Shown here: one piece after another, positions 1 to 19,816 of the stretch
Layout of the letters: the number at the start of each line of letters is the position of its first letter
How positions within the stretch are numbered: position 1 is the stretch's first letter
IMG/VR virus record: IMGVR_UViG_3300030116_002396
Coordinates: 1-25,132 of that record
Reading direction: 5' to 3' (one strand)
Source of the DNA: a virus
DNA length: 25,132 nt
Position numbers and translations under genes: made by a program
The notes under the pieces: generated by a model
Databases searched by the model: none
Seen by the model: only the letters and a program-made list of their open reading frames with translations
Told to the model about the DNA's origin: nothing

Positions 1-224
1 TTCTCATACACTCTATCGTTATGTGCGTTAGGGTATCCCCTACTTTCGCAGTGTAGGACACGCATGGCCACGTCTACATCCTGCCTATCCCATTCATCCC
101 ACACATACGCTACTAATGGCTCCCATACCTGTGTGCGATCAGGGTACGGTCCATCCAGGTTCACTGCTTGAGCGTCTATAGGTGCTGTAGGTATAAACCA
201 CAGCATCAATATTAAAGACCACAC
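1..224 (-). CDS. Partial secreted cell-wall lysin (transglycosylase/lysozyme-like)
   Basis: The C-terminus lies beyond the left edge. The visible part reads as a hydrophobic leader (WSLILMLWFIPTAP), a likely cleavage region near AQA, then a helical stretch ending VAMRVLHCESRGYPNAHN. The HCESRG motif, with its glutamate followed by Arg-Gly and Pro-Asn-Ala, matches the active-site entry of lysozyme-like transglycosylases common in actinobacteria and their phages. The likely role is therefore peptidoglycan cleavage. The GTG at 224 follows GAGGG and gives a full leader; the ATG at 206 is the alternative and shortens it. The GTG start overlaps the end of the upstream gene by 13 bases. The family call rests on one motif and is moderately sure. 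Confidence 0.6.
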   Translation of the reverse strand, partial: MWSLILMLWFIPTAPIDAQAVNLDGPYPDRTQVWEPLVAYVWDEWDRQDVDVAMRVLHCESRGYPNAHNDRVYE

Positions 225-1033
225 ATACCCTCACATTCCTCAAGCAAAGATAATTGATTAGCAGATTCTTTCGTAGTGAATGTAACCTGGTCTAATGGCA
301 TACAAGAGGAATGCAGATATTCATTAGGGTTTATCTCTCTTAATTGTTTATCGAATAGCACAGCGTCTTGCCATGATTCTTTATCGTTTTCTTTCATGTC
401 CATCCATTCATCCTTGCTATGGAATGGACAGAATGTACACGCTGATCTAGGTGGTACTGGATAGTTTCGTTCAATTTGCCAGTCAAGACAATCCTGGCGT
501 GTCATCTTCATATCAATCAGCGGATACTCATTAGTCATAAATGGTTCTAACCTATGATCCTTAACCCTGAACACTTCATCGTAGCTGATGCCTAATATGT
601 TGGTCACTGTACCGTGTGCTTTAGATCGTCTTTGTTTGTACCCTAACCCTATTAACTCTCTTTGTTTGCGTATCACTGGCGCTAACTTAAATTCTCTTGT
701 GCATTGCCTACGACCTATGGAAACCTTACCGTTAGGTTTCTTAACGTACACAGGGATAGGATTAAACGCTTTCTTGTTAGGATTCTTACCTAACGCATCA
801 TCACGCAAATTCCCAGCAGACACGACATGAATAGTCACATTACCTGTTTCTTTCGCTTGCTCCTGGAGCCAGGATAAATTACGGTAGACACTAGCAGGTT
901 CGCTCATCGTATCAGAGAAGACATAGTCCTCAACATACGCAAAGTATTCATCAGGGTAATGCATGTTCATTAACGCTAGGCATGACGACTGTACGCCAGC
1001 ACCTAGAGACAACACACGTTTATTTGGATACAC
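212..1033 (-). CDS. Phosphoadenosine phosphosulfate reductase-like PP-loop protein
   Basis: 273 aa from a GTG start. Residues 9-17 (SLGAGVQSS) form the PP-loop of the PAPS-reductase/ATP-pyrophosphatase fold, which binds the nucleotide phosphate. RRQCTREFK around Cys111 and a C-terminal CTFCPF with Cys199 and Cys202 are the cysteine sites usual in phage members; LGISYDE near 147-153 is also typical. Family members act in sulfate reduction or in sulfur transfer to nucleic acids, as in DndC. The real substrate of the phage versions is unknown, so no reaction is assigned. Upstream, frame-matched DNA reaches a TAA with no ATG, which supports the GTG start, although its ribosome site is weak. It lies between a small phage protein and the lysin. 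Confidence 0.75.
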   Translation of the reverse strand: MYPNKRVLSLGAGVQSSCLALMNMHYPDEYFAYVEDYVFSDTMSEPASVYRNLSWLQEQAKETGNVTIHVVSAGNLRDDALGKNPNKKAFNPIPVYVKKPNGKVSIGRRQCTREFKLAPVIRKQRELIGLGYKQRRSKAHGTVTNILGISYDEVFRVKDHRLEPFMTNEYPLIDMKMTRQDCLDWQIERNYPVPPRSACTFCPFHSKDEWMDMKENDKESWQDAVLFDKQLREINPNEYLHSSCMPLDQVTFTTKESANQLSLLEECEGMCGL

Positions 1034-2827: not shown

Positions 2828-3664
2828 TTAGTTGAGTACTCTAACAAATCCGCTTGAATCTGATCTAGCTTTACCTTTAGCTTTTAATGCTATAACCGTA
2901 AACCCATCACTAGTCATATCCGCTAAATTATCGTGAATACCTAGTTTTACTGGCGTCTCTTGATAGTGTGTGAATGTTGGATAGTCACTAAATACAACGG
3001 CTACGCCATCATATCGACTAGCTAGGCTAGGTATCTTATCATCATCGAAACGTTCGCTAGCGCTATAAACTACCGTGTAATTATCTAGCTTACTGAGATT
3101 GCGTCTAGGATGCTTAGTATAATCCCAATAGGTTACACCATCTATATTAAATAGGCTAGGCGCTATTAATTCCCACCTTAAATCACTGTAATCATTTAAC
3201 CTACAGAATATCGCACCCTCTAACGCTACCTTACTTCTAATCTCTGATGCCAGTCGCTTTATAAATAGTCCTGGCATACGATGTAAAGCGATAGTCTTTA
3301 CAGTCCTAGCAAACTTAACGCTAGGTATTCCACCCTTACCAAATTCTGCAATGCATGCACGTCTACATCCATCCGTAGCGAACGAACACACATTAACGAC
3401 ATTACTAGCGTCGCTTTGCGCTAACGCTAGGCCATATTGATTAATTCCGTACTCTTCACTAGTCTTATCATGCTTAGTTATTTGATCACTCAATAGCTTT
3501 AACGTGGATGGTGTCTTATCCTTAGGGCATCTAACGTTATCCCTAATCGCTATTTCTCTCTGTATGTCGTTATAGGCATCTATGAATTGTGCTAACTCTT
3601 GAGGTGTTAGCCTATCCGTAGCATATGGGCCATTATCAACTAAATACTTATCTAGGTTAATCAT
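2828..3664 (-). CDS. Gp88-family phage protein (mycobacteriophage L5 gp88-like)
   Basis: 278 aa from the ATG at 3664, which follows a GAAAGAGAGAGA motif; an upstream frame extension to 3730 would run into the neighbouring gene and was rejected. The family signature is clear: GLALAQSD (78-85), VCSFATDGCRRACI with Cys93, Cys100 and Cys104, then FGKGG, VKFARTVKT, and RLNDYSDLRWE (155-165) followed by YWDYTKHPRR. The three close cysteines may hold metal or an Fe-S cluster. Members occur in actinophages, cyanophages and plasmids, with no proven activity. It is the largest gene of the leftward arm. Confidence 0.8.
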   Translation of the reverse strand: MINLDKYLVDNGPYATDRLTPQELAQFIDAYNDIQREIAIRDNVRCPKDKTPSTLKLLSDQITKHDKTSEEYGINQYGLALAQSDASNVVNVCSFATDGCRRACIAEFGKGGIPSVKFARTVKTIALHRMPGLFIKRLASEIRSKVALEGAIFCRLNDYSDLRWELIAPSLFNIDGVTYWDYTKHPRRNLSKLDNYTVVYSASERFDDDKIPSLASRYDGVAVVFSDYPTFTHYQETPVKLGIHDNLADMTSDGFTVIALKAKGKARSDSSGFVRVLN

Positions 3665-3677
3665 TGTCTCTCTCTTT

Positions 3678-4058
3678 CTATATTTCCATAAACAACTTAA
3701 CATTGTTAAGACTATTAAAGGTGTCGTCATGCACTAAATAAAATACGCCATTAGTAACACGTTCGCCATTATCGCAACGATAGAAATAATCACGATCCGC
3801 ATATTTCTTAGGATTATACGACACCTGAACAACATTACTAGGAACACTACTAACGACCTCATACGATCCCGCTGTATGGACTTTAGCGCACACTTCACGA
3901 CTACCACTGCTAACGATTGCCCTATGCCTAGCGCTAGACACCTTACATAGTCCACTAGATATCTTTACTATCGTATTGTGCATATAATCTACAGGTGCGC
4001 TACCTACTTTACGGCTAATGCATTTCTTGTTTATATTTGCATAGAATACAGTTTGCAT
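3678..4058 (-). CDS. Hypothetical basic protein, 126 aa
   Basis: Not recognised. Basic, and rich in Ser, Val and Tyr. The N-terminus (MQTVFYANINKKCISRKVG) is followed by a serine-rich middle with several Cys-Lys-Val repeats (LCKVSS, VCAKVH) and a C-terminal YFYRCDNGERVTNGVFYLV that looks like a beta hairpin. The GAAAGAGAG motif lies inside the end of the upstream 40-aa gene, ten bases before this ATG. The next gene follows after 13 bases. A nucleic-acid-binding role is possible from charge only. Confidence 0.65.
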   Translation of the reverse strand: MQTVFYANINKKCISRKVGSAPVDYMHNTIVKISSGLCKVSSARHRAIVSSGSREVCAKVHTAGSYEVVSSVPSNVVQVSYNPKKYADRDYFYRCDNGERVTNGVFYLVHDDTFNSLNNVKLFMEI

Positions 4059-4775: not shown

Positions 4776-5219
4776 ATGCCACAGAATGGTGGAGGCAAAG
4801 GTTGGAAAACTGATCCAGACACAGGCGAAAAAGTTATGCCTGACAACTGGAAGAAATATTTGGATTGGTTGTTAACAGAAGATCGTGAACCGTCTACGAC
4901 TAAAGCGTGGGCTGCTGAAAATGGTGTCAATGACAGAACTGTTCGGCGGTGGAAGTCTGATCCTCGTTTTATTCGTGAGTGGGACCGTAGGGCCGCTGAG
5001 TTAAATGTTCACCCTGAGCGTACACAGTCCGTTGTTGATGCGTTGCATGCTGCTGCGGTGGCTGGTGATGTTAAGGCAGCTTCGTTGTACTTGCAGTACA
5101 TCGAAAAGTTTACGCCTAAGCGTAGGGTTGTGGTTGATGATGACAGGATGGTGTCTGGTTTGTCTGATGCTGAGTTGCATGCTGAGTTGGAGTCGTTGAT
5201 GGAGGGGTTGGATGTCTGA
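4776..5219 (+). CDS. terS: Terminase small subunit candidate (HTH protein)
   Basis: 147 aa. The ATG at 4776 follows AGGAGG by seven bases; a longer frame upstream crosses the stem-loop and T-tracts and was rejected. The N-terminus is Gly- and Lys-rich. Residues about 41-60 (TKAWAAENGVNDRTVRRWKS) form a clear helix-turn-helix, followed by helices (VVDALHAAAVAGDVKAASLY) and a basic KFTPKRR, then an acidic helical end. This layout fits small terminase proteins that bind the packaging site and pass DNA to the large subunit. It is the first gene of the rightward arm, though the large subunit lies 3 kb away. A simple DNA-binding regulator is the alternative. Confidence 0.65.
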   Translation: MPQNGGGKGWKTDPDTGEKVMPDNWKKYLDWLLTEDREPSTTKAWAAENGVNDRTVRRWKSDPRFIREWDRRAAELNVHPERTQSVVDALHAAAVAGDVKAASLYLQYIEKFTPKRRVVVDDDRMVSGLSDAELHAELESLMEGLDV

Positions 5220-5746: not shown

Positions 5747-5772
5747 TTTAAATTTCAACTGGGGGGTTGGGG

Positions 5773-7218
5773 GTGAGCAGGTTATTTCGCCTGTTAAGTC
5801 GAGCGTTATTGGCTTCTTTGTTAGTGGTTGTGTGGTTTGCACCGCCTAGCGTGGCGCAAACTGTGTGTGAAGCTACTGACGAGGGATGGGATTGCAACAT
5901 AGTTGTGGATGTTGTGGGCGAAGGCCCACAATTTACGTTCGTCTTACAAGAAGAAACAGAAGTTACAATTAGAACGTACACATCGTTGACATGTGACGAC
6001 TGGGAAACAAACACTGGCACTGATTTGTATGCTGCTGATCCCATTCTTTCTTTGTATGACGACCAGGAAGTGTTGTTATTTCAAGATGATGACTCAGCGG
6101 AACACAATGATGGCACTAATTTTTGTTGGGATGCGTTGATTGTTGAAACGTTATCTGCTGGTTCATATGTGTTGCATGCTGACGCATACAATGAGGCTAC
6201 GACTGGCGTTTATTCTCTAGAAATTTCTGGAGGTGAATGGACTGTTCCTCAGGCAGAGCCTGTCGAAGAGCCAACGCCAACGCCATCTCCTGAGCCAATA
6301 GAGGAACCTGAGCAAGAGCCTGAACCAACTCCAGAGCCTGAGCCTGAGGTTCCTGATCCAACTCCTATTCCTCCAACTCCTGAACCTGTTCCTGATGAAG
6401 ACGTGCCAGAAGAACCAGAGCTACCAGAAGAGCCAGAAGAACCGCAGGAAGAACCCATAGAAGAAACAGAACCAATACAAGAGGAATTTGTACCCCCAGT
6501 ACAAGAAGTATGGACACCACCACCAATAGTGATAGAGATAGAGGTAGTAGAAGAAGACCCATATGTGAATGATATCACTTTTGAAGATATTGAGTGGGAA
6601 GACTATGATTTCTCTGACTTTGAAGAGGGACAATTAGAGTTATTAGTAGAAGAGGAAATTTTTGAGGAAATACCTGAAGAAGAAGTATTTGATGAATTAT
6701 TTGCAGAAGAAGACGAGACAGAGGCACAAGAGGAGACAGCTTTTGTTGATGAAACAGAACAGGAGCTCGAAGTATTTGAGTTCGTACAAGATGTGGAATT
6801 AGAGGACCAAGATTTTGAGTTGTTGGAGGTGGAAGATTTAGATGGCGAAACTCTTATTGAAATATTACAAGATGAAAATGCACCTGAGGAATTTTTTGAA
6901 GAGGTCATAGAAGATAATCCAGATTTTTTCGAGGAGAGCGAGGAAGATGAATTAGAGCAGGTGTTTGAGGCAGCTCCAGAGTTATTTAACGAGATGCCAG
7001 ATGAGGTTAAGGAAGAATTTGAGGAGGAAATTAATATATTTGCTGGGGGCTTTGAGGATTACCAGGCAGAAGATAGCACTATTACAGTGCAGGAACGGCG
7101 TGTTGTTGTGACTGCGTCAACTGTTAGTGCTGTGGCTGCTGCAAGGCCAACTGTTAGACCTATGCCAGCGCCTACTGTTGGTGGTCCGTCAATACCTCAG
7201 GGGGGTAGAAGAAGATGA
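5773..7218 (+). CDS. Secreted Pro/Glu-rich protein with PPC-like beta-sandwich domain
   Basis: About 481 aa. GTG at 5773 is preferred because a G-rich ribosome site lies five bases upstream; the in-frame TTG at 5767 abuts it. Residues 1-28 form a signal peptide (RRs then LLASLLVVVWFAPP, cleavage near VAQ). Residues about 30-150 form a domain with four cysteines and a pre-peptidase-C-terminal-like pattern (ADPILSLYDD, LSAGSYVLHADAYNEATTGVYSLEIS). Then about 90 residues of Pro-Glu repeats and about 170 very acidic residues. The tail (VQERRVVVTASTVSAVAAA) is more basic and ends GGRRR. There is no second membrane helix. A phage-coded exported protein is unusual; host envelope modification, superinfection exclusion or a lysis role are guesses. 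Confidence 0.75.
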   Translation: MSRLFRLLSRALLASLLVVVWFAPPSVAQTVCEATDEGWDCNIVVDVVGEGPQFTFVLQEETEVTIRTYTSLTCDDWETNTGTDLYAADPILSLYDDQEVLLFQDDDSAEHNDGTNFCWDALIVETLSAGSYVLHADAYNEATTGVYSLEISGGEWTVPQAEPVEEPTPTPSPEPIEEPEQEPEPTPEPEPEVPDPTPIPPTPEPVPDEDVPEEPELPEEPEEPQEEPIEETEPIQEEFVPPVQEVWTPPPIVIEIEVVEEDPYVNDITFEDIEWEDYDFSDFEEGQLELLVEEEIFEEIPEEEVFDELFAEEDETEAQEETAFVDETEQELEVFEFVQDVELEDQDFELLEVEDLDGETLIEILQDENAPEEFFEEVIEDNPDFFEESEEDELEQVFEAAPELFNEMPDEVKEEFEEEINIFAGGFEDYQAEDSTITVQERRVVVTASTVSAVAAARPTVRPMPAPTVGGPSIPQGGRRR

Positions 7219-7391: not shown

Positions 7392-7657
7392 TGACAGAAA
7401 ACATGCAATTATTTGGAAACACATGCCTGCGTATTTGTAGCGTGTTTGGCATACAATGTATGGCGATTATTGGTGGCAGTTCCATTATTGGCGGTATTGA
7501 AGTGCATAAAGCTGCGATACTTAGCGGTGTTGCTGCGGTAGCGCAAGTTCTGCAAAGACTTGCGATAGCTTTTGCTGACGATGGTGTGTTAACAAAAGCT
7601 GAGTTGGATGCTGCGTTTAGTGGCTCTACCGTAGTGGAGGACCGTTCAGCCACATAA
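7391..7657 (+). CDS. Membrane protein, holin-like (88 aa)
   Basis: A hydrophobic segment (about 16-36, with GIQCMAIIGGSSIIGGI) and a second, weaker one (42-62, ILSGVAAVAQVLQRLAIAFA) precede DDGVLTKAELDAAF. The final pattern of a helix followed by a D-G-x-L-T-x-x-E motif is common in small phage holin-type proteins. It starts at a TAATG junction with the 58-aa membrane protein, so the two may form a holin/antiholin pair. Its last 32 bases overlap the end of the antisense oxygenase gene. Confidence 0.6.
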   Translation: MTENMQLFGNTCLRICSVFGIQCMAIIGGSSIIGGIEVHKAAILSGVAAVAQVLQRLAIAFADDGVLTKAELDAAFSGSTVVEDRSAT

Positions 7658-8243
7658 CTGCTGTTTTTCTGATACCGTTAGTAACAGGAGCTACACGATG
7701 ATGGATGAAACTAGGAAACGCTATAGCAGAACCTCTAGGGCATTGATCAAAGACGTGTGTTTGGTTATGGAAGTGAAGTTCTAATGTTCCTCCTTCGTAA
7801 TCTTCTGGGAAACTCAGGTTTACAGTCAAAGATACTTTCCGCACTAGCCCTGCTAGTAGTGGGTTTGTTGTTTTGTTTAGGGGCATTGGGTCTATGGATT
7901 TTTCGACCAAATGTCTTGCAGCGTATTGGTCTTGGTGGCCGTCAGTGTGCCAAGCATATTCGTCACCTTTTTCGTAAAGCGTGTACTGGATGGCTTCAGG
8001 CCGTATTAAGTGGAACATCCATCCAGCGTCAACGTTGGCTGTGTTTCCTATTTGATCTACCACGTTCATTGCGAAATCATCGTGGACCCAACTTATCGAA
8101 GATGACCTTTTGGAAGGGTCTTCTCCAAAGTGGAAGCCGTCTATAGGATGAACGTTGAACGCTTGCTCGCCTTTGCTTTCCAAGTAGTCGCATTCTTCTT
8201 GCGAAAGCACATCAGGCATGTACCAGAAGTGATTAGTTAACAT
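7626..8243 (-). CDS. 2OG-Fe(II) oxygenase (PKHD/prolyl hydroxylase type)
   Basis: 205 aa. The iron site is complete: HTD with His99 and Asp101, and a distal histidine at HHRVAP (181-182), followed by Arg192 for 2-oxoglutarate in GIRKTAVMW. SLTVNLSFPEDYEGGTLEL (138-156) is the usual core strand pair. Members hydroxylate protein or other substrates; several marine phages carry them, with targets unknown. The ATG at 8243 lies in a CATG that also starts the terminase gene on the other strand; an extension to 8288 is possible but would run 47 bases into it. It is the only leftward gene in the right arm and is tail-to-tail with the holin-like gene. Its ribosome site is weak. Confidence 0.85.
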   Translation of the reverse strand: MLTNHFWYMPDVLSQEECDYLESKGEQAFNVHPIDGFHFGEDPSKRSSSISWVHDDFAMNVVDQIGNTANVDAGWMFHLIRPEAIQYTLYEKGDEYAWHTDGHQDQYAARHLVEKSIDPMPLNKTTNPLLAGLVRKVSLTVNLSFPEDYEGGTLELHFHNQTHVFDQCPRGSAIAFPSFIHHRVAPVTNGIRKTAVMWLNGPPLR

Positions 8244-9129
8244 GGCATACACTCTATCAGAATTACGACAAGAAGCAGAGTGGCGCAAATGTCAAAAGAA
8301 TGAGGAACATTTTTTGCGTAACTACTGGCATATAGCGCATCCAGCGCATGGTCGCATATTGTTTGATTTGCGTGCAGCGCAATCAACAGCGTTAGAGCAT
8401 TGGGAAGAACACAGGTATTCGTTAACGTTGAAGGCTAGGCAGATTGGGTGGTCTACGCTTGTAGCTGCTCACCAATTTTGGTTAGCGTTTTTTCATGCAG
8501 ATCAGAACATTATTGATTTGTCTAGAACTGAACGTGAAGCTGTGTTGTTGCTACGCAAGACTAAGTATGGGTATAAGCATTTACCTGAATGGATGTTGGA
8601 GCGTGGGCCTAAGTCGTTAATGGAACATCAACAAAGAATGGGGTTTGATAATGGGTCACAAATTACATCAATGCCATCAGCTTCTGACCCAGCTCGTGGC
8701 GAATCAGCATCGCTTATTGTGGTGGATGAATGGGCGTTTCTCCCTAATCCTGAGGAAGCTTGGGCTTCTATCGAACCTGTTGCTGATATTGGTGGTCGCA
8801 TTATTGGTCTTTCCACTGCGAATGGTTCTGGGAATTTTTATCATCAGCTTTGGGTTGGTGCTACTACTGGTGCAAACAAGTTTGCGCCTATGTTTTTTCC
8901 TTGGTCAGCGACTGAAGATAGGGGAGATGCTTGGTATCAAGAAAAAATAGAAAGCATGTTGCCCTGGCAACTAGCGCAAGAATATCCAACTACTGCTGAG
9001 GAAGCGTTTGTTAAGTCAGGTAATCCTGTATTTGATTTAGATATTTTAGAGCAAATGGATCGTAATACTATTCGAGGTACAGTGGGGTATATGTGGCGTA
9101 ACAATAACCATGTGGAGTTTAGGCAATGA
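8242..9129 (+). CDS. terL-N: Terminase large subunit, ATPase part
   Basis: 295 aa. The ATPase motifs of large terminases are present: a Walker A variant KARQIGWST (64-72), adenine-side residues before it, Walker B LIVVDE (158-163) with the catalytic Glu163, and the coupling motif STANG (191-195). The N-terminus (LRQEAEWRKCQKNEEHFLRNYW) is typical. The gene stops after VEFRQ, at the linker where a normal terminase runs on into its nuclease domain. The next gene supplies that domain, overlapping by ATGA. It powers DNA translocation into the procapsid. The start shares CATG with the antisense gene, and its ribosome site is weak. Confidence 0.9.
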   Translation: MAYTLSELRQEAEWRKCQKNEEHFLRNYWHIAHPAHGRILFDLRAAQSTALEHWEEHRYSLTLKARQIGWSTLVAAHQFWLAFFHADQNIIDLSRTEREAVLLLRKTKYGYKHLPEWMLERGPKSLMEHQQRMGFDNGSQITSMPSASDPARGESASLIVVDEWAFLPNPEEAWASIEPVADIGGRIIGLSTANGSGNFYHQLWVGATTGANKFAPMFFPWSATEDRGDAWYQEKIESMLPWQLAQEYPTTAEEAFVKSGNPVFDLDILEQMDRNTIRGTVGYMWRNNNHVEFRQ

Positions 9130-9797
9130 GTTTGGAAATATGGCAAGAACCAGACTCTATGTCAGCGTATGTCATGGGTGTAGATACCGCTGAAGGTTTA
9201 GGGCATGGGGACTACTCGTGCATACAAGTACTTGAAGTAGGAACTGGTGAGCAGGTAGCGATATGGCATGGGCATATTGCACCTGATTTGTTAGCAGAAG
9301 AAGTTCACGCTGTAGGGTTATGGTATCGAGATGCACTATGTTGTGTAGAATCCAACAATCATGGTTTAACCACAATCACTGAACTACGGCATTTAGGATA
9401 TCCCAATTTATTCAGGCGTAGACTATTGAATAATGTTAGCAACAGGATAGGACAAGAGTACGGTTGGAAAACAACCAGAACGTCTAAACCTTTGATGATT
9501 GATGATTTAAGTTCTGCGTTAAGGAACTGGGAATTACAGATTAATGATAAACATACCGTTGCAGAGTTACGCACGTTTACGAGGAATGAGCGTGGCAGCA
9601 TGTCAGGTTCGCCTTATGATGACCGTGTTATGGCTCTTGCTTTGGCTAATCAAATGAGGAAATATGCGTATGAACCTGAGTATGCTCCGCAAGTGGATGA
9701 CTATTGGACTGTTGATTGGTTTGCTCGTTTGGGTGATAATACGCCTAAATCTAATCCGTTGCAGATAGGTATCCACAATGTTCGTGGGACACTGTGA
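9126..9797 (+). CDS. terL-C: Terminase large subunit, nuclease part
   Basis: 223 aa. An RNase H-like nuclease of large terminases: MGVDTAEG (Asp20) with GDYSCI, then CVESNNHG (Glu75) and SPYDDRVMALALA (Asp165/166), giving the expected three acidic metal ligands. It begins EIWQEPDS, the strand that normally follows the linker from the ATPase domain. GGAG lies eight bases before the ATG, so it can start on its own. Together the two genes (518 aa) match the usual length of a whole terminase. It would cut the concatemer at packaging start and end. Confidence 0.9.
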   Translation: MSLEIWQEPDSMSAYVMGVDTAEGLGHGDYSCIQVLEVGTGEQVAIWHGHIAPDLLAEEVHAVGLWYRDALCCVESNNHGLTTITELRHLGYPNLFRRRLLNNVSNRIGQEYGWKTTRTSKPLMIDDLSSALRNWELQINDKHTVAELRTFTRNERGSMSGSPYDDRVMALALANQMRKYAYEPEYAPQVDDYWTVDWFARLGDNTPKSNPLQIGIHNVRGTL

Positions 9798-10385: not shown

Positions 10386-12278
10386 ATGGCTAAAAAAACA
10401 CGTTTAGAAATCTTAGATGAATCTCAAGAACGTGTACGCAAATGCGAACAATGGCGTGAATCAGAAGGTTTAGATCGCACATGGCGTAGGTTAAACGACT
10501 TGTATCGTGGCAAACATTGGCCATCAACATTAGTCAACAATCAAGACCTTATAGCTGTCAATTTAGCGTTTTCTACAGTAAACGTTATAGCACCATCTGT
10601 AGCTGTTAACTATCCAAAGGTTGTCGTACAAGCAAACAATCCTGAAGATAAAGATAGAGCAGTATTTGTTGAAGCTGTCGTAAACCATTTGTGGAAACAC
10701 CATGACTTTAGGTCACCGTTTAGACGAGCCGTTAAAGACTTTCTTGTGTTTGGGCATGGATGGCTTAAAGTAGGTTGGAAGTTCGTAGAACAAGAACAAG
10801 CTGTTAGCGAAACAGAAAGAGAAACACTCATAGACCAGGCCATAATGGAAGCAGACGCTTTCGCTATGGAGGAAATGGATATGGCAGGCGATCTGCCATC
10901 AAACGATGACATCATAGCTAACATTCCCAGTACGATAATGCGAGTCGTAGAAGACCAGCCTTTCGTAGAAAGAGTTAGCCCCTTTGATGTATTTGTTGAT
11001 CCAGAAGCTACATGCATGGAAGACGCTAAGTGGATAGCGCAGAAAATAGTTCGACCATTAGAATCAGCGAAGAAAGATAAACGTTACAAACCATCTGCTC
11101 GTAAACGCTTGTATGCCACAACTAGCTACAATCTTTATGACACAAGTAGTTACGCAGAAGAAAAAGCAGAATACGTTGACGAACGAGTAACCATCTGGGA
11201 ATTTTATGACGTAATGACCAACACGCTTTCTGTATACGCAGAAGGAGCAGAAGAGTTTCTAGTAGACCCTGTTCCTATGCCATACGCATATGGGCAACCT
11301 TTTGTGATGCTACGAAACTATGACGTTCCAGATCATTTCTACCCAATAGGTGACTTAGAATCCATAGAGTCTTTACAGTTAGAATTAGATAAGACTCGTA
11401 GCCAGTTAATGAACGATAGGAAACGTTATGCAAGGAAATATCTTTACCACGAACGTTCCTTTGGGCCTGAAGGCCGTGAGGCATTGGAATCAGACGAAGA
11501 TGGTCGTCTTGTGCCTGTTGTCGATGAGAATAAGCCACTTACTGAAGTGGTTATGCCAATGCCACAAGTACCAGTATCTCCTGAAATCTACAATTATTCA
11601 GAAATAATAACAAACGACATTAACACTGTTTCAGGTATATCTGAGTATGCTCGTGGCGCTATGCCAGAAATACGGCGCACAGCGACAGAAGCAAGCATTA
11701 TTGCAGACGCACAGAATGCTCGTGCTGCTGACAAACTTGCAATTATTGAGCTGGGCATTTCGTATGTCGCTAGGCGAGTTGTGCAATTACTGCAACAATT
11801 TATGACAGGTGAGCAGGTTGCACGCATAAACTTGCGTGGTGGCGACAATCTATGGATACCTTACACAAGGGAAGAAATAGTAGGCGAGTACGATTTCAGC
11901 GTACAAGCAGGGTCAACGCAACCAATGAACGAAACAATTAGAAAGCAACAAGCTATTTCTTTAATGAACGCTGTTGCACCTATGATAGGTAGCGTCATTG
12001 ATCCTGCTGCTATGGCAATGCATATTCTTGAAACAGGGTTTGGTATTAGTGATCCTGAACGTTTCTTAGTACAACAACCACCTCCTGGTATGGGGGCTGA
12101 AGAAGGTCAAGCTCCTCCTGAGGGAGCGCCTCCTGGCGGTCCACCACCTATGCCTGGTGGCCCTATGGCTCCTCCTCCTAGTCCTGAAGGTGGGGCGTTT
12201 GCGCCTACTGGGGGCATACCTCCAGAGTTACTTGCACAGTTGCAAGGACAAATGGGAGTCGAATTACCTTCCCTTTAG
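10386..12278 (+). CDS. Portal protein
   Basis: 630 aa. The protein has the shape of podovirus-type portals: a charged N-terminus, then YRGKHWP, NLAFSTVNVIAPSVAVNYPK, a wing-like middle (RVSPFDVFVDPEATCMEDAKW, the pattern of portal clip and stem proteins), a long helical segment (ESIQLELDKTRSQLMND) and SGISEYARGAMPEIRRTATEA. The C-terminal 80 residues are rich in Pro, Gly and Met and probably flexible. It would form the dodecameric ring at one capsid vertex, through which DNA is packed and ejected. Position between terminase and scaffold agrees. The stop is followed at once by a boundary element. Confidence 0.85.
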   Translation: MAKKTRLEILDESQERVRKCEQWRESEGLDRTWRRLNDLYRGKHWPSTLVNNQDLIAVNLAFSTVNVIAPSVAVNYPKVVVQANNPEDKDRAVFVEAVVNHLWKHHDFRSPFRRAVKDFLVFGHGWLKVGWKFVEQEQAVSETERETLIDQAIMEADAFAMEEMDMAGDLPSNDDIIANIPSTIMRVVEDQPFVERVSPFDVFVDPEATCMEDAKWIAQKIVRPLESAKKDKRYKPSARKRLYATTSYNLYDTSSYAEEKAEYVDERVTIWEFYDVMTNTLSVYAEGAEEFLVDPVPMPYAYGQPFVMLRNYDVPDHFYPIGDLESIESLQLELDKTRSQLMNDRKRYARKYLYHERSFGPEGREALESDEDGRLVPVVDENKPLTEVVMPMPQVPVSPEIYNYSEIITNDINTVSGISEYARGAMPEIRRTATEASIIADAQNARAADKLAIIELGISYVARRVVQLLQQFMTGEQVARINLRGGDNLWIPYTREEIVGEYDFSVQAGSTQPMNETIRKQQAISLMNAVAPMIGSVIDPAAMAMHILETGFGISDPERFLVQQPPPGMGAEEGQAPPEGAPPGGPPPMPGGPMAPPPSPEGGAFAPTGGIPPELLAQLQGQMGVELPSL

Positions 12279-17088: not shown

Positions 17089-17840
17089 TGGTAGCTTTGA
17101 AGTATTACAACGGCAGTAGCTGGGTAGCGATACCTAATGGCACTAAGGTTCAGTATTATACTGGTAGTGCCTTTACTCAGCCTAAGCACGTTAAATACTG
17201 GGATGGGGATTCTTGGGAAACAGTATGGTCTAAATCAGATCCTGTGACACTTGCGTTTACTTGTAACGCTTCGCAAGGTTGGCGTAATAACGCTTGGAGA
17301 ACAGACAACAAAGTGCGCTTTGGAGCGTTTGAAAACTTTGGGGATAACTTAACTGTTCTTGAATTTAGTGACGATTCGACTACAGGTGGCTACACAAGTA
17401 CGTCTTTAGCTGAAGCTCTTGCTGTTCGACCTAATGTAACTAGTGCAACGTTAAGTTTGTATAGAAACGCTGGGGCTGGTGACAGCACAATTAGTGGGTC
17501 TACTAGCGAGACTCTTCTTGTAGGCCAATTAAACAAAACAAATGGAACTGCAATGTCAACATATAATGCTGGTTCATATGTGCAAACTACGAATATGCAA
17601 ACTGTTGCTGCATCAAGTCTTCAAAGCTGGGGTTCTAATGCTACAAGAGCGTTAGCGTTACCATCTTCAAATTTGACTGCGTTTATTACGCATGTATCTA
17701 CCAAACAAATGTGGGTGTCTGAAAAATCAAGTGGTTGGATAGCTAGTGGTGGTGGCACAAGCTCTTCTGACATTTATTCTGTGTGTGATGGATCAGCGCA
17801 AACTAATAAACCTGTACTAACTGTGACATTGGATTACTAA
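17088..17840 (+). CDS. Tail fibre/spike protein, 250 aa
   Basis: The ATG at 17088 overlaps the previous stop; an in-frame ATG at 17067 was rejected because it lies inside the upstream gene. The start ([35 protein letters not shown]) repeats a short aromatic module, typical of fibre head or shaft domains. The rest ([35 protein letters not shown]) resembles a jelly-roll or DNRLRE-type beta domain that binds ligands. Two cysteines only. Receptor binding is inferred from position, ahead of the collagen fibre. Confidence 0.6.
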
Positions 17841-19816
17841 TGCCTAGAGATATTCAATACACCAAACTACTAGGACCACAAGTTGAGATAACGATGACTA
17901 ACGGTCCTGACTATGAAGGAACGTACTCAGCGTCTACAACGTATGCTGCTGGTGATGTTGTAGCTTACAATGGGTCATCGTATGTCGCTCGACAAGGAAC
18001 GACAGGTAACACACCTGGCGACACTTCGTATTGGCAGACGTTAGCTTCTAAAGGCAATGATGGTCCAACTGGACCTACAGGGCCAGGTGGAAGTACTGGT
18101 CCTGCTGGACCCACTGGTCCTGCTGGACCTACAGGTCCAAGTGGCCCAACAGGGCCAACAGGTCCACAGGGACCACAAGGAGATACTGGACCTGCTGGAC
18201 CCACAGGTCCAAGCGGTCCCACAGGTAGCGCTGGTCCTCCAGGCCCAGATGGTCCTAGCGGACCTGCTGGTCCCACTGGTCCAACAGGAAGCACTGGACC
18301 TACTGGTCCCACAGGGCCAACTGGTCCAACAGGAGCGCAAATACTTAATGGTAGTGGTGATCCTTCTGGGCCAACAGGATCAGATGGTGACTTTTATATC
18401 GACACTGGGGATAATGAAATCTTTGGTCCTAAAGCAAGTGGTAATTGGGGTTCAGGAACTTCGTTAGTTGGTCCTAGTGGGCCTACAGGCCCAACTGGAC
18501 CTACTGGACCTACTGGACCTACAGGTCCAACTGGTCCAGGGGGGACAGGTCCAACTGGTCCAACAGGTCCAACTGGACCTACAGGAGATGCTGGGCCAAC
18601 TGGTCCAACTGGGCCTGCTGGGGGTACTGGTCCTGCTGGTCCTCCTGGACCTACTGGTAGTGCTGGACCTCCTGGTCCTGATGGTCCTGACGGTCCTGAC
18701 GGACCTACTGGCCCTACTGGTCCTAGTGGTCCTACTGGTTCTGCTGGGCCTCCTGGCCCTAGCGGTCCTGCTGGCGGTACTGGACCCACTGGACCTACTG
18801 GTCCAACGGGTCCAACTGGACCTTCTGGAACTGCTGGTGGTTCTGATACGCAAGTGCAGTATAACAACAGCACTGCGTTTGCTGGTTCTTCTAACATGGT
18901 GTTTGATGGGACACGTTTAAAGCTAACGAATACTGATGACGCTGATTTAGACGCTATATCTGGTTGTTTGATAACAGGTGGTGATGGTACAGGAGCGCAT
19001 TTAGCTTTTGATAATAATGAAATTATGGCTAAATCAGATGCTACTACTGCCGCAAGTTTGTATTTACAAAACGATGGTGGAACTGTCAAATTTGGTGCAA
19101 ACACTAACTTAACTACATGGGAAGTGCATGGAACTGATGGGGGAAATAAGATATTTGGTAGCGGTTCTATACTTGAGTTACATACGACTGCGGCTGGTGA
19201 TAAAAGCGGTTACATAGGATTCTTTAACGACTCAGATACTCGCATGGGTTATATAGGGTATGCCCAAAATGATGATATCCATATCAGAAATGAGAATGCT
19301 GGTGGTAATATTTACTTTGGTACGCAAGGCGCAGGAAGTGGTTACGCTTGTTATATAACGTCTGCTGGGAACTTTGTTCCGTACAATGATAATGCCAGTG
19401 ATTTAGGTTCTAGCACTAGATGTTGGGAACACCTGTGGTTAGGGCAAGGAAATACTTTTTCATCTGGTGGTTATTGGACATTACGTTCAAGAGACTCAGA
19501 CCAACAAGTTATGGAGTACACATCTAGTGAACGCTTTAAGAAAGACATTGTAGATTTACCTTTAGAGGAAGCGTATCAAATACTAGACGCTAGACCCATC
19601 AAATTCAGGGGTATTGAAGATGATGCGTCTGTTCCTCTTGAAGCAGGGTTATCTGCTGAAAGCTTGCATGAGGCAGGGTTTGAGTACGCTGTTCGTTACG
19701 ATGAGGGGCATTGGGGTGAAACTCCTAGAGCTGTGTATTACGAGATGCTTACTGCTCCTTTAATTAAGATAGTTAAAGACTTAAAAGACCGTATAGAAGC
19801 ATTGGAGGCAGGATAA
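17840..19816 (+). CDS. Collagen-like tail fibre with C-terminal S74 chaperone
   Basis: 658 aa. Residues 23-70 form a carbohydrate-binding-module-like region ([31 protein letters not shown]). Two Gly-x-y collagen blocks follow (about 72-165 and 211-332), mostly Gly-Pro-Thr. They are separated by a small domain ([20 protein letters not shown]) that recurs in phage collagen fibres. A beta-rich shaft runs from about 340 to 555. The end is an intramolecular chaperone of the endosialidase type (peptidase S74): SSERFKKDI (562-570) holds the Ser and Lys of self-cleavage, followed by ARPIKFRG and a helical end. The mature fibre is probably a trimer and binds the host surface. Confidence 0.85.
18053..18835 (+). 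repeat. Collagen-coding repeat tracts (two blocks)
   Basis: Nine-base-like units of the form GGxCCxACT and GGTCCAACA repeat over 18053-18334 and 18470-18835, with a unique stretch between them. Each unit encodes Gly-Pro-Thr or a variant. The codons vary between copies, so pairing is imperfect. Such tracts are prone to expansion and contraction. The long antisense frames here are products of this composition. Confidence 0.85.

Follow-up and report, generated by a model that had tools for sequence, protein, structure and literature searches.

Conserved division of the large terminase into separate ATPase and nuclease genes in a clade of uncultured tailed phages

The large terminase (TerL) is a hallmark enzyme of tailed phages and a widely used single-gene phylogenetic marker. 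In the stretch of viral DNA analysed here (the window; 25,132 nt, positions 1-25,132 of IMG/VR record IMGVR_UViG_3300030116_002396) its two domains lie on two overlapping genes, which raises the question of whether they are a genuine two-gene enzyme, a single protein restored by frameshifting or splicing, or the outcome of error or decay. An earlier note, made from the letters of the window, had described a 295-aa ATPase gene and a 223-aa nuclease gene joined by an ATGA overlap, and these coordinates were verified. The features relevant to the question are the following.

8242-9129, + strand: TerL-A, terminase ATPase gene, 295 aa (Pfam Terminase_6N, PHROG terminase, T4 gp17 profile and fold matches, invariant Walker A, Walker B and motif C)
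9126-9797, + strand: TerL-B, terminase RNase H-fold nuclease gene, 223 aa (Terminase_6C below threshold, PHROG terminase, T4 and RB49 gp17 nuclease profile and fold, invariant D20, E75, D165 and D166)
9126-9129, + strand: ATGA start/stop overlap of TerL-A and TerL-B (sequence; a 4-base overlap common to 79 loci)
9114-9117, + strand: GGAG, likely Shine-Dalgarno of TerL-B, within the VEFR codons of TerL-A (8-nt spacing, GTG-GAG codon bias)
9120-9122, + strand: TAG closing the nuclease frame 5' of the TerL-B ATG (sequence)
4785-5219, + strand: small terminase subunit candidate (PHROG terminase small subunit, E 1.2e-5; Pfam HTH_Tnp_1_2; start codon provisional)
10386-12278, + strand: portal protein, partner of the packaging motor (Pfam SU10_portal, E 2e-23)

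The TerL-A protein was matched by Pfam Terminase_6N (E 3.5e-8) and PHROG terminase large subunit (E 3e-29), and the TerL-B protein by the PHROG family phrog_24361, annotated as terminase (E 5e-21), and by Terminase_6C (E 6.1e-4, slightly under the Pfam curated cut-off). Profile searches against the PDB returned T4 gp17 for both TerL-A (4e-34) and TerL-B (1e-8), and the RB49 gp17 nuclease for TerL-B (1e-9). AlphaFold models of the two proteins were each matched to T4 gp17 by Foldseek (TerL-A: pLDDT 61, E about 2e-11; TerL-B: pLDDT 73, E 1.4e-12). TerL-A has the features of a P-loop ATPase, with Walker A (LKARQIGWST), Walker B and catalytic glutamate (SLIVVDEWAF) and motif C (GLSTAN), and residues K64-A-R-Q-I-G69, D162-E163 and S191-T192-A193 are invariant in 61 sequences. 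TerL-B has those of an RNase H-fold nuclease with an acidic triad (D20, E75 and D165/D166), all four residues being invariant in 63 sequences. Judged from these motifs, which are present in the window and conserved across the family, both active sites are intact, and the full nuclease triad that the earlier note had read is there. The two domains are not carried on one linker-joined polypeptide: two ORFs were found in 225 of the 225 readable loci of the clade described below.

To locate the break, the halves were aligned with fused relatives. TerL-A ends in GYMWRNNNHVEFRQ followed by its stop codon and TerL-B begins with MSLEIWQEPDSMSAYVMGVDTAEG, and a fused relative (L082) reads YDITASRRSDVQLVDGGNFHIWETPNDKDRWSYVVGADIAEG across the same region, which puts the break where the fused proteins have a GG turn ahead of NFHIW. 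The ATPase half ends 1-10 residues past VEFR, and the nuclease half starts with MSLEIW. No domain is missing, so the suggestion that the ATPase gene stops at the inter-domain linker and that the halves add up to a whole terminase is borne out. The ATPase model ends in a C-terminal beta-hairpin (residues 283-287 and 290-294; the model is weak overall at pLDDT 61, with its last 30 residues near 80-88), and the nuclease model opens with an N-terminal strand (residues 2-5); on these models the break falls in the turn joining two strands that probably lie side by side when the protein is fused.

The surrounding genes were annotated with Pfam. On the opposite strand, a 2OG-Fe(II) oxygenase gene (7626-8288, -; Pfam E 3e-10) adjoins the ATPase gene, and the palindrome CATG at 8241-8244 contains the start codon of the ATPase gene (ATG, 8242) and, on the other strand, what may be that of the oxygenase gene, so that the pair may run apart from start codons that overlap. 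The interval separating the genes of the small and large terminase subunits encodes a protein of 483 aa (5767-7218, +) that is very acidic, rich in Pro and Glu and signal-like at its N-terminus, and for which no Pfam match was found. Further away are a GP88-family protein (2828-3730, -; Pfam PF17338, E 5e-26) and a 658-aa protein with long collagen-like GPT/GPP repeats (17840-19816, +; Pfam Collagen, E 6e-25), whose C-terminus may be akin to the intramolecular chaperones of the S74 type that occur on tail fibres.

Relatives were collected from IMG/VR with three kinds of query, namely the ATPase, nucleases from two split relatives, and a pair of fused proteins from the outgroups; IMG/VR was scanned five times and genome contigs were scanned with the ATPase, taking the best 80 loci per scan. 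Among loci with both halves listed, at least 225 are split and 33 are fused; some of the 225 are overlapping stretches of one contig, and the 160 distinct pairs of TerL-A and TerL-B are the safer count. One locus (L064) was left unclassed on account of ambiguous N bases in its nuclease gene. The earlier note had proposed aligning relatives for a conserved split, its reading standing to fall if all of them carried one fused gene; every readable clade locus proved to be split. No fused member was found inside the clade among the best 80 loci of the five IMG/VR scans and the genome-contig scan, and all 33 fused loci fall outside it. In the tree, the split sequences form one side of a branch with SH-aLRT 99, and the nearest outgroups are fused (L082, which is MW202803.1, and L084 and L195); manual inspection of three annotated phages from further away showed a fused terminase in each. 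Single-gene terminases are the rule, as the note had stated. The split is thus shown, at the level of sequence, to be conserved and monophyletic in this clade, within which the lowest full-length identity of TerL-A plus TerL-B to the window is 68%.

Single-base breaks are common in metagenome contigs, and a sequencing error, an assembly error or a decaying pseudogene would produce two such frames. The identical break recurs, however, in 160 distinct pairs from many samples and in two frame relations, and dN/dS between close pairs ranges from 0.03 to 0.11 in the ATPase gene and from 0.03 to 0.09 in the nuclease gene, values by which both genes are under strong purifying selection. Recurrence and selection together refute error or decay, to which we assign a negligible probability. 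The two halves also diverge in step (r 0.80), and each of the 16 longer records searched (16/16) holds exactly one match to TerL-A and one to TerL-B; these records may themselves be fragments, and a further, distant terminase-like gene may lie elsewhere in the genome.

The clade is a large, uncultured group of tailed phages, represented mostly by contig fragments, and the evidence on it is sequence throughout. It is apparently marine, an impression drawn from two metagenome-assembled bins and the character of the data. These bins, labelled Acidimicrobiaceae TMED189 and Euryarchaeota, were the only two genome-collection matches, and either may be binning noise; tRNA gave no pointer to a host.

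The junction between the halves takes several forms. A 4-base overlap (-4, ATGA or GTGA), the form seen in the window, was found in 79 loci, and a 20-base overlap (-20), which sets the nuclease in another relative frame than in the 4-base class, in 128; the two overlaps mark two subclades. Members of the 20-base class share the ATPase tail DA[HY]SLA, as expected from dual coding in the overlap. Minor forms are TAATG (-1) in three loci and overlaps of 29-32 bases (-29 or -32) in another three. In the remaining form, seen in 12 loci, the halves lie 265-841 nt apart, and the gap holds one complete, unrelated ORF joined to both halves by ATGA-like overlaps, with no room for an intron.

Two kinds of inserted gene were recognised. 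A PAPS-reductase-like gene (PF01507, weak match) occurs in L002/L003, L007/L008 and L018, and a ferredoxin gene (Fer4_15, E 6e-17) in L066, L077, L116 and L117 and loci overlapping these. L002 is the closest relative of the window (ATPase 100% and nuclease 99.6% identical), yet it carries an insert. The three versions of the PAPS-reductase-like insert are 54-62% identical to one another and the adjoining ATPases are at least 91% identical to that of the window; these sequences are most simply read as the result of several insertions or exchanges at a single site. In other relatives, genes akin to the ferredoxin and PAPS-reductase-like inserts lie upstream of the ATPase. For ferredoxin the position immediately before the ATPase is a common one (dozens of loci), and in one subclade the gene lies between the halves (for example, L066:1601-1873). 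The window, which has no insert at its junction, carries a PAPS-reductase-like gene at 212-1033 (-) that is 45-48% identical to the inserts of L002, L007 and L018 and shares with them the C-terminus CEGMCG. Given the relatives upstream of the ATPase and the copy in the window, both kinds of gene seem to be resident cargo that changes its place among the packaging genes.

The junction forms bear on two ways in which a single protein might still be made. Overlapping frames are usual for programmed frameshifting, by which one fused TerL would be translated from the two genes, and the earlier note had judged this unlikely, pointing to a TAG in the nuclease frame that is indeed present at 9120-9122. 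The relative frame differs between the subclades, the 12 loci with inserts have no shared zone at all, their nuclease frame opening only 265-826 nt past the ATPase stop, and no more than 4 of the 225 loci contain an in-frame slippery heptamer of the form X_XXY_YYZ. A programmed-frameshift gene would keep one frame relation, a zone common to both frames and a slippery site; the clade does not, and for it the insert loci refute such a mechanism. We regard frameshifting as exceedingly improbable.

Introns and inteins often interrupt terL (Jug phages, ICP1, IBB_35 and Mic1), and the two genes could by analogy be exons joined at the RNA level or pieces joined at the protein level. Here the halves overlap and leave no space for an intron, and the inserts are fully occupied by an ORF. 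No Rfam intron was found in the window and six relatives, and no intein or split-intein domain was found at the junction, TerL-B starting at the strand that aligns with fused relatives; with neither an intron nor an extra domain, the locus does not conform to an intron-split or intein-interrupted terL, and splicing is given almost no credence. Genes in pieces produced by a homing endonuclease, the most attractive of the alternatives, were likewise considered and are unsupported, since none of the scanned inserts (PAPS-reductase-like and ferredoxin) is a homing endonuclease gene, although an endonuclease since lost may have made the first break.

Independent translation of the nuclease was addressed through its putative ribosome-binding site. 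The GGAG at 9114-9117, which the earlier note had taken to favour independent starts, lies 8 nt before the nuclease ATG and is encoded by the GTG-GAG of VEFR. In 62 representatives with this motif, GAG accounts for 50 of 62 codons at the VEFR glutamate, compared with 774 of 1533 at other positions of the ATPase genes (Fisher p 2e-6), and at the valine GTG accounts for 46 of 51 codons, compared with 326 of 817 at other positions (p 6e-13); related sequences were treated as independent, and both p values are inflated by kinship. The bias supports a nuclease ribosome-binding site that is embedded in the last ATPase codons and maintained there, in line with the note, and its direction fits translational coupling of the halves.

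We consider it very probable that this is a genuine two-gene TerL, whose halves are likely to be two translationally coupled subunits that pair non-covalently as the packaging motor. A fused gene of the gp17 type would have been cut within the inter-domain linker in an ancestor shared by the whole clade, and both halves would have been kept since the fission. The ATPase and the nuclease would be made as separate proteins through translational coupling at the ATGA. The hairpin that closes the ATPase and the strand that opens the nuclease may then pair non-covalently and rebuild the linker, a pairing that is tentative given the weak ATPase model, and the halves would also bind through the domain interface. 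The assembled pair would act as the motor at the portal, with the nuclease making the initiation and termination cuts, and the open junction would tolerate cargo genes, which would have entered repeatedly.

A different arrangement is that the ATPase alone translocates DNA, perhaps in the manner of phi29, whose motor is nuclease-poor, and that the nuclease, as a separable factor, is recruited for the initiation and termination cuts only. Separate genes, the nuclease having its own start, would allow a stoichiometry other than 1:1, and in some loci the halves are more than 800 nt apart. They are nevertheless adjacent or nearly so in every locus and diverge in step, the linker strand sits at the nuclease N-terminus, and in T4 it is the C-terminal domain that bears the translocation groove (PMC3012670). 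We regard such an accessory nuclease as unlikely, though less so than the readings set aside above.

The preferred reading, two subunits acting as one motor, has to be set against an experiment in T4, in which gp17 cut at the linker is reported to have kept its ATPase and nuclease activities and lost translocation (PMC3012670), so that reassembly of the natural halves is not guaranteed. The domain interface in T4 is described as exceeding 1000 square angstroms (PMC3012670). Either the natural split holds its halves together better than the T4 fragments or it needs no tether. We lean modestly towards the ATPase and nuclease being independent subunits, with force transmitted without a covalent linker or the nuclease recruited only for cutting; if true, this would contradict the conclusion drawn from split gp17. 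The clade has evidently been long-lived with the cut at the place corresponding to the one that fails in T4, and it offers a natural experiment in which the role of the covalent linker is directly testable. The junction is now also an insertion place for metabolic cargo genes inside a formerly single essential gene, and pipelines that expect a full-length protein would miss a widespread clade with a two-gene TerL or count it as truncated.

Among known systems, a two-gene TerL without rejoining was not found in the literature searched (open-licence papers). Interrupted terL genes, in Jug phages (PMC12363816), ICP1 (PMC10448857), Campylobacter phage IBB_35 (PMC3322345) and Mic1 (PMC7156551), are alike in that the coding region is in pieces or interrupted, and those pieces are rejoined by splicing or taken to be, with RNA evidence for Jug (PMC12363816) and ICP1 (PMC10448857); here, in contrast, there is nothing to splice and the inserts have no homing endonuclease. 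Other enzymes are made from two genes, sometimes with another gene between them, such as a ribonucleotide reductase split by a homing endonuclease (Friedrich et al. 2007, as cited in PMC3322345) and the two-gene DNA polymerases of MEP401-like OM43 phages (PMC10580990); the present case differs in the enzyme, in its PAPS-reductase-like and ferredoxin inserts, and in that most members have no insert. The T4 gp17-type terminase (Terminase_6N plus Terminase_6C; PDB 3CPE) shares both domains, their order, the catalytic motifs, the profile and fold matches and a position shortly before the portal gene, whereas here there are two genes, broken at the inter-domain linker and without about the first 120 residues of gp17. 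The closest annotated relative is the fused, 560-aa TerL of MW202803.1 (Podoviridae sp. ct52p938, Manatee Spring), 53% identical over the ATPase and 48% over the nuclease, which is encoded by one uninterrupted gene and reads VDGG-NFHIW across the linker, where the window has VEFR, a stop and MSLEIW.
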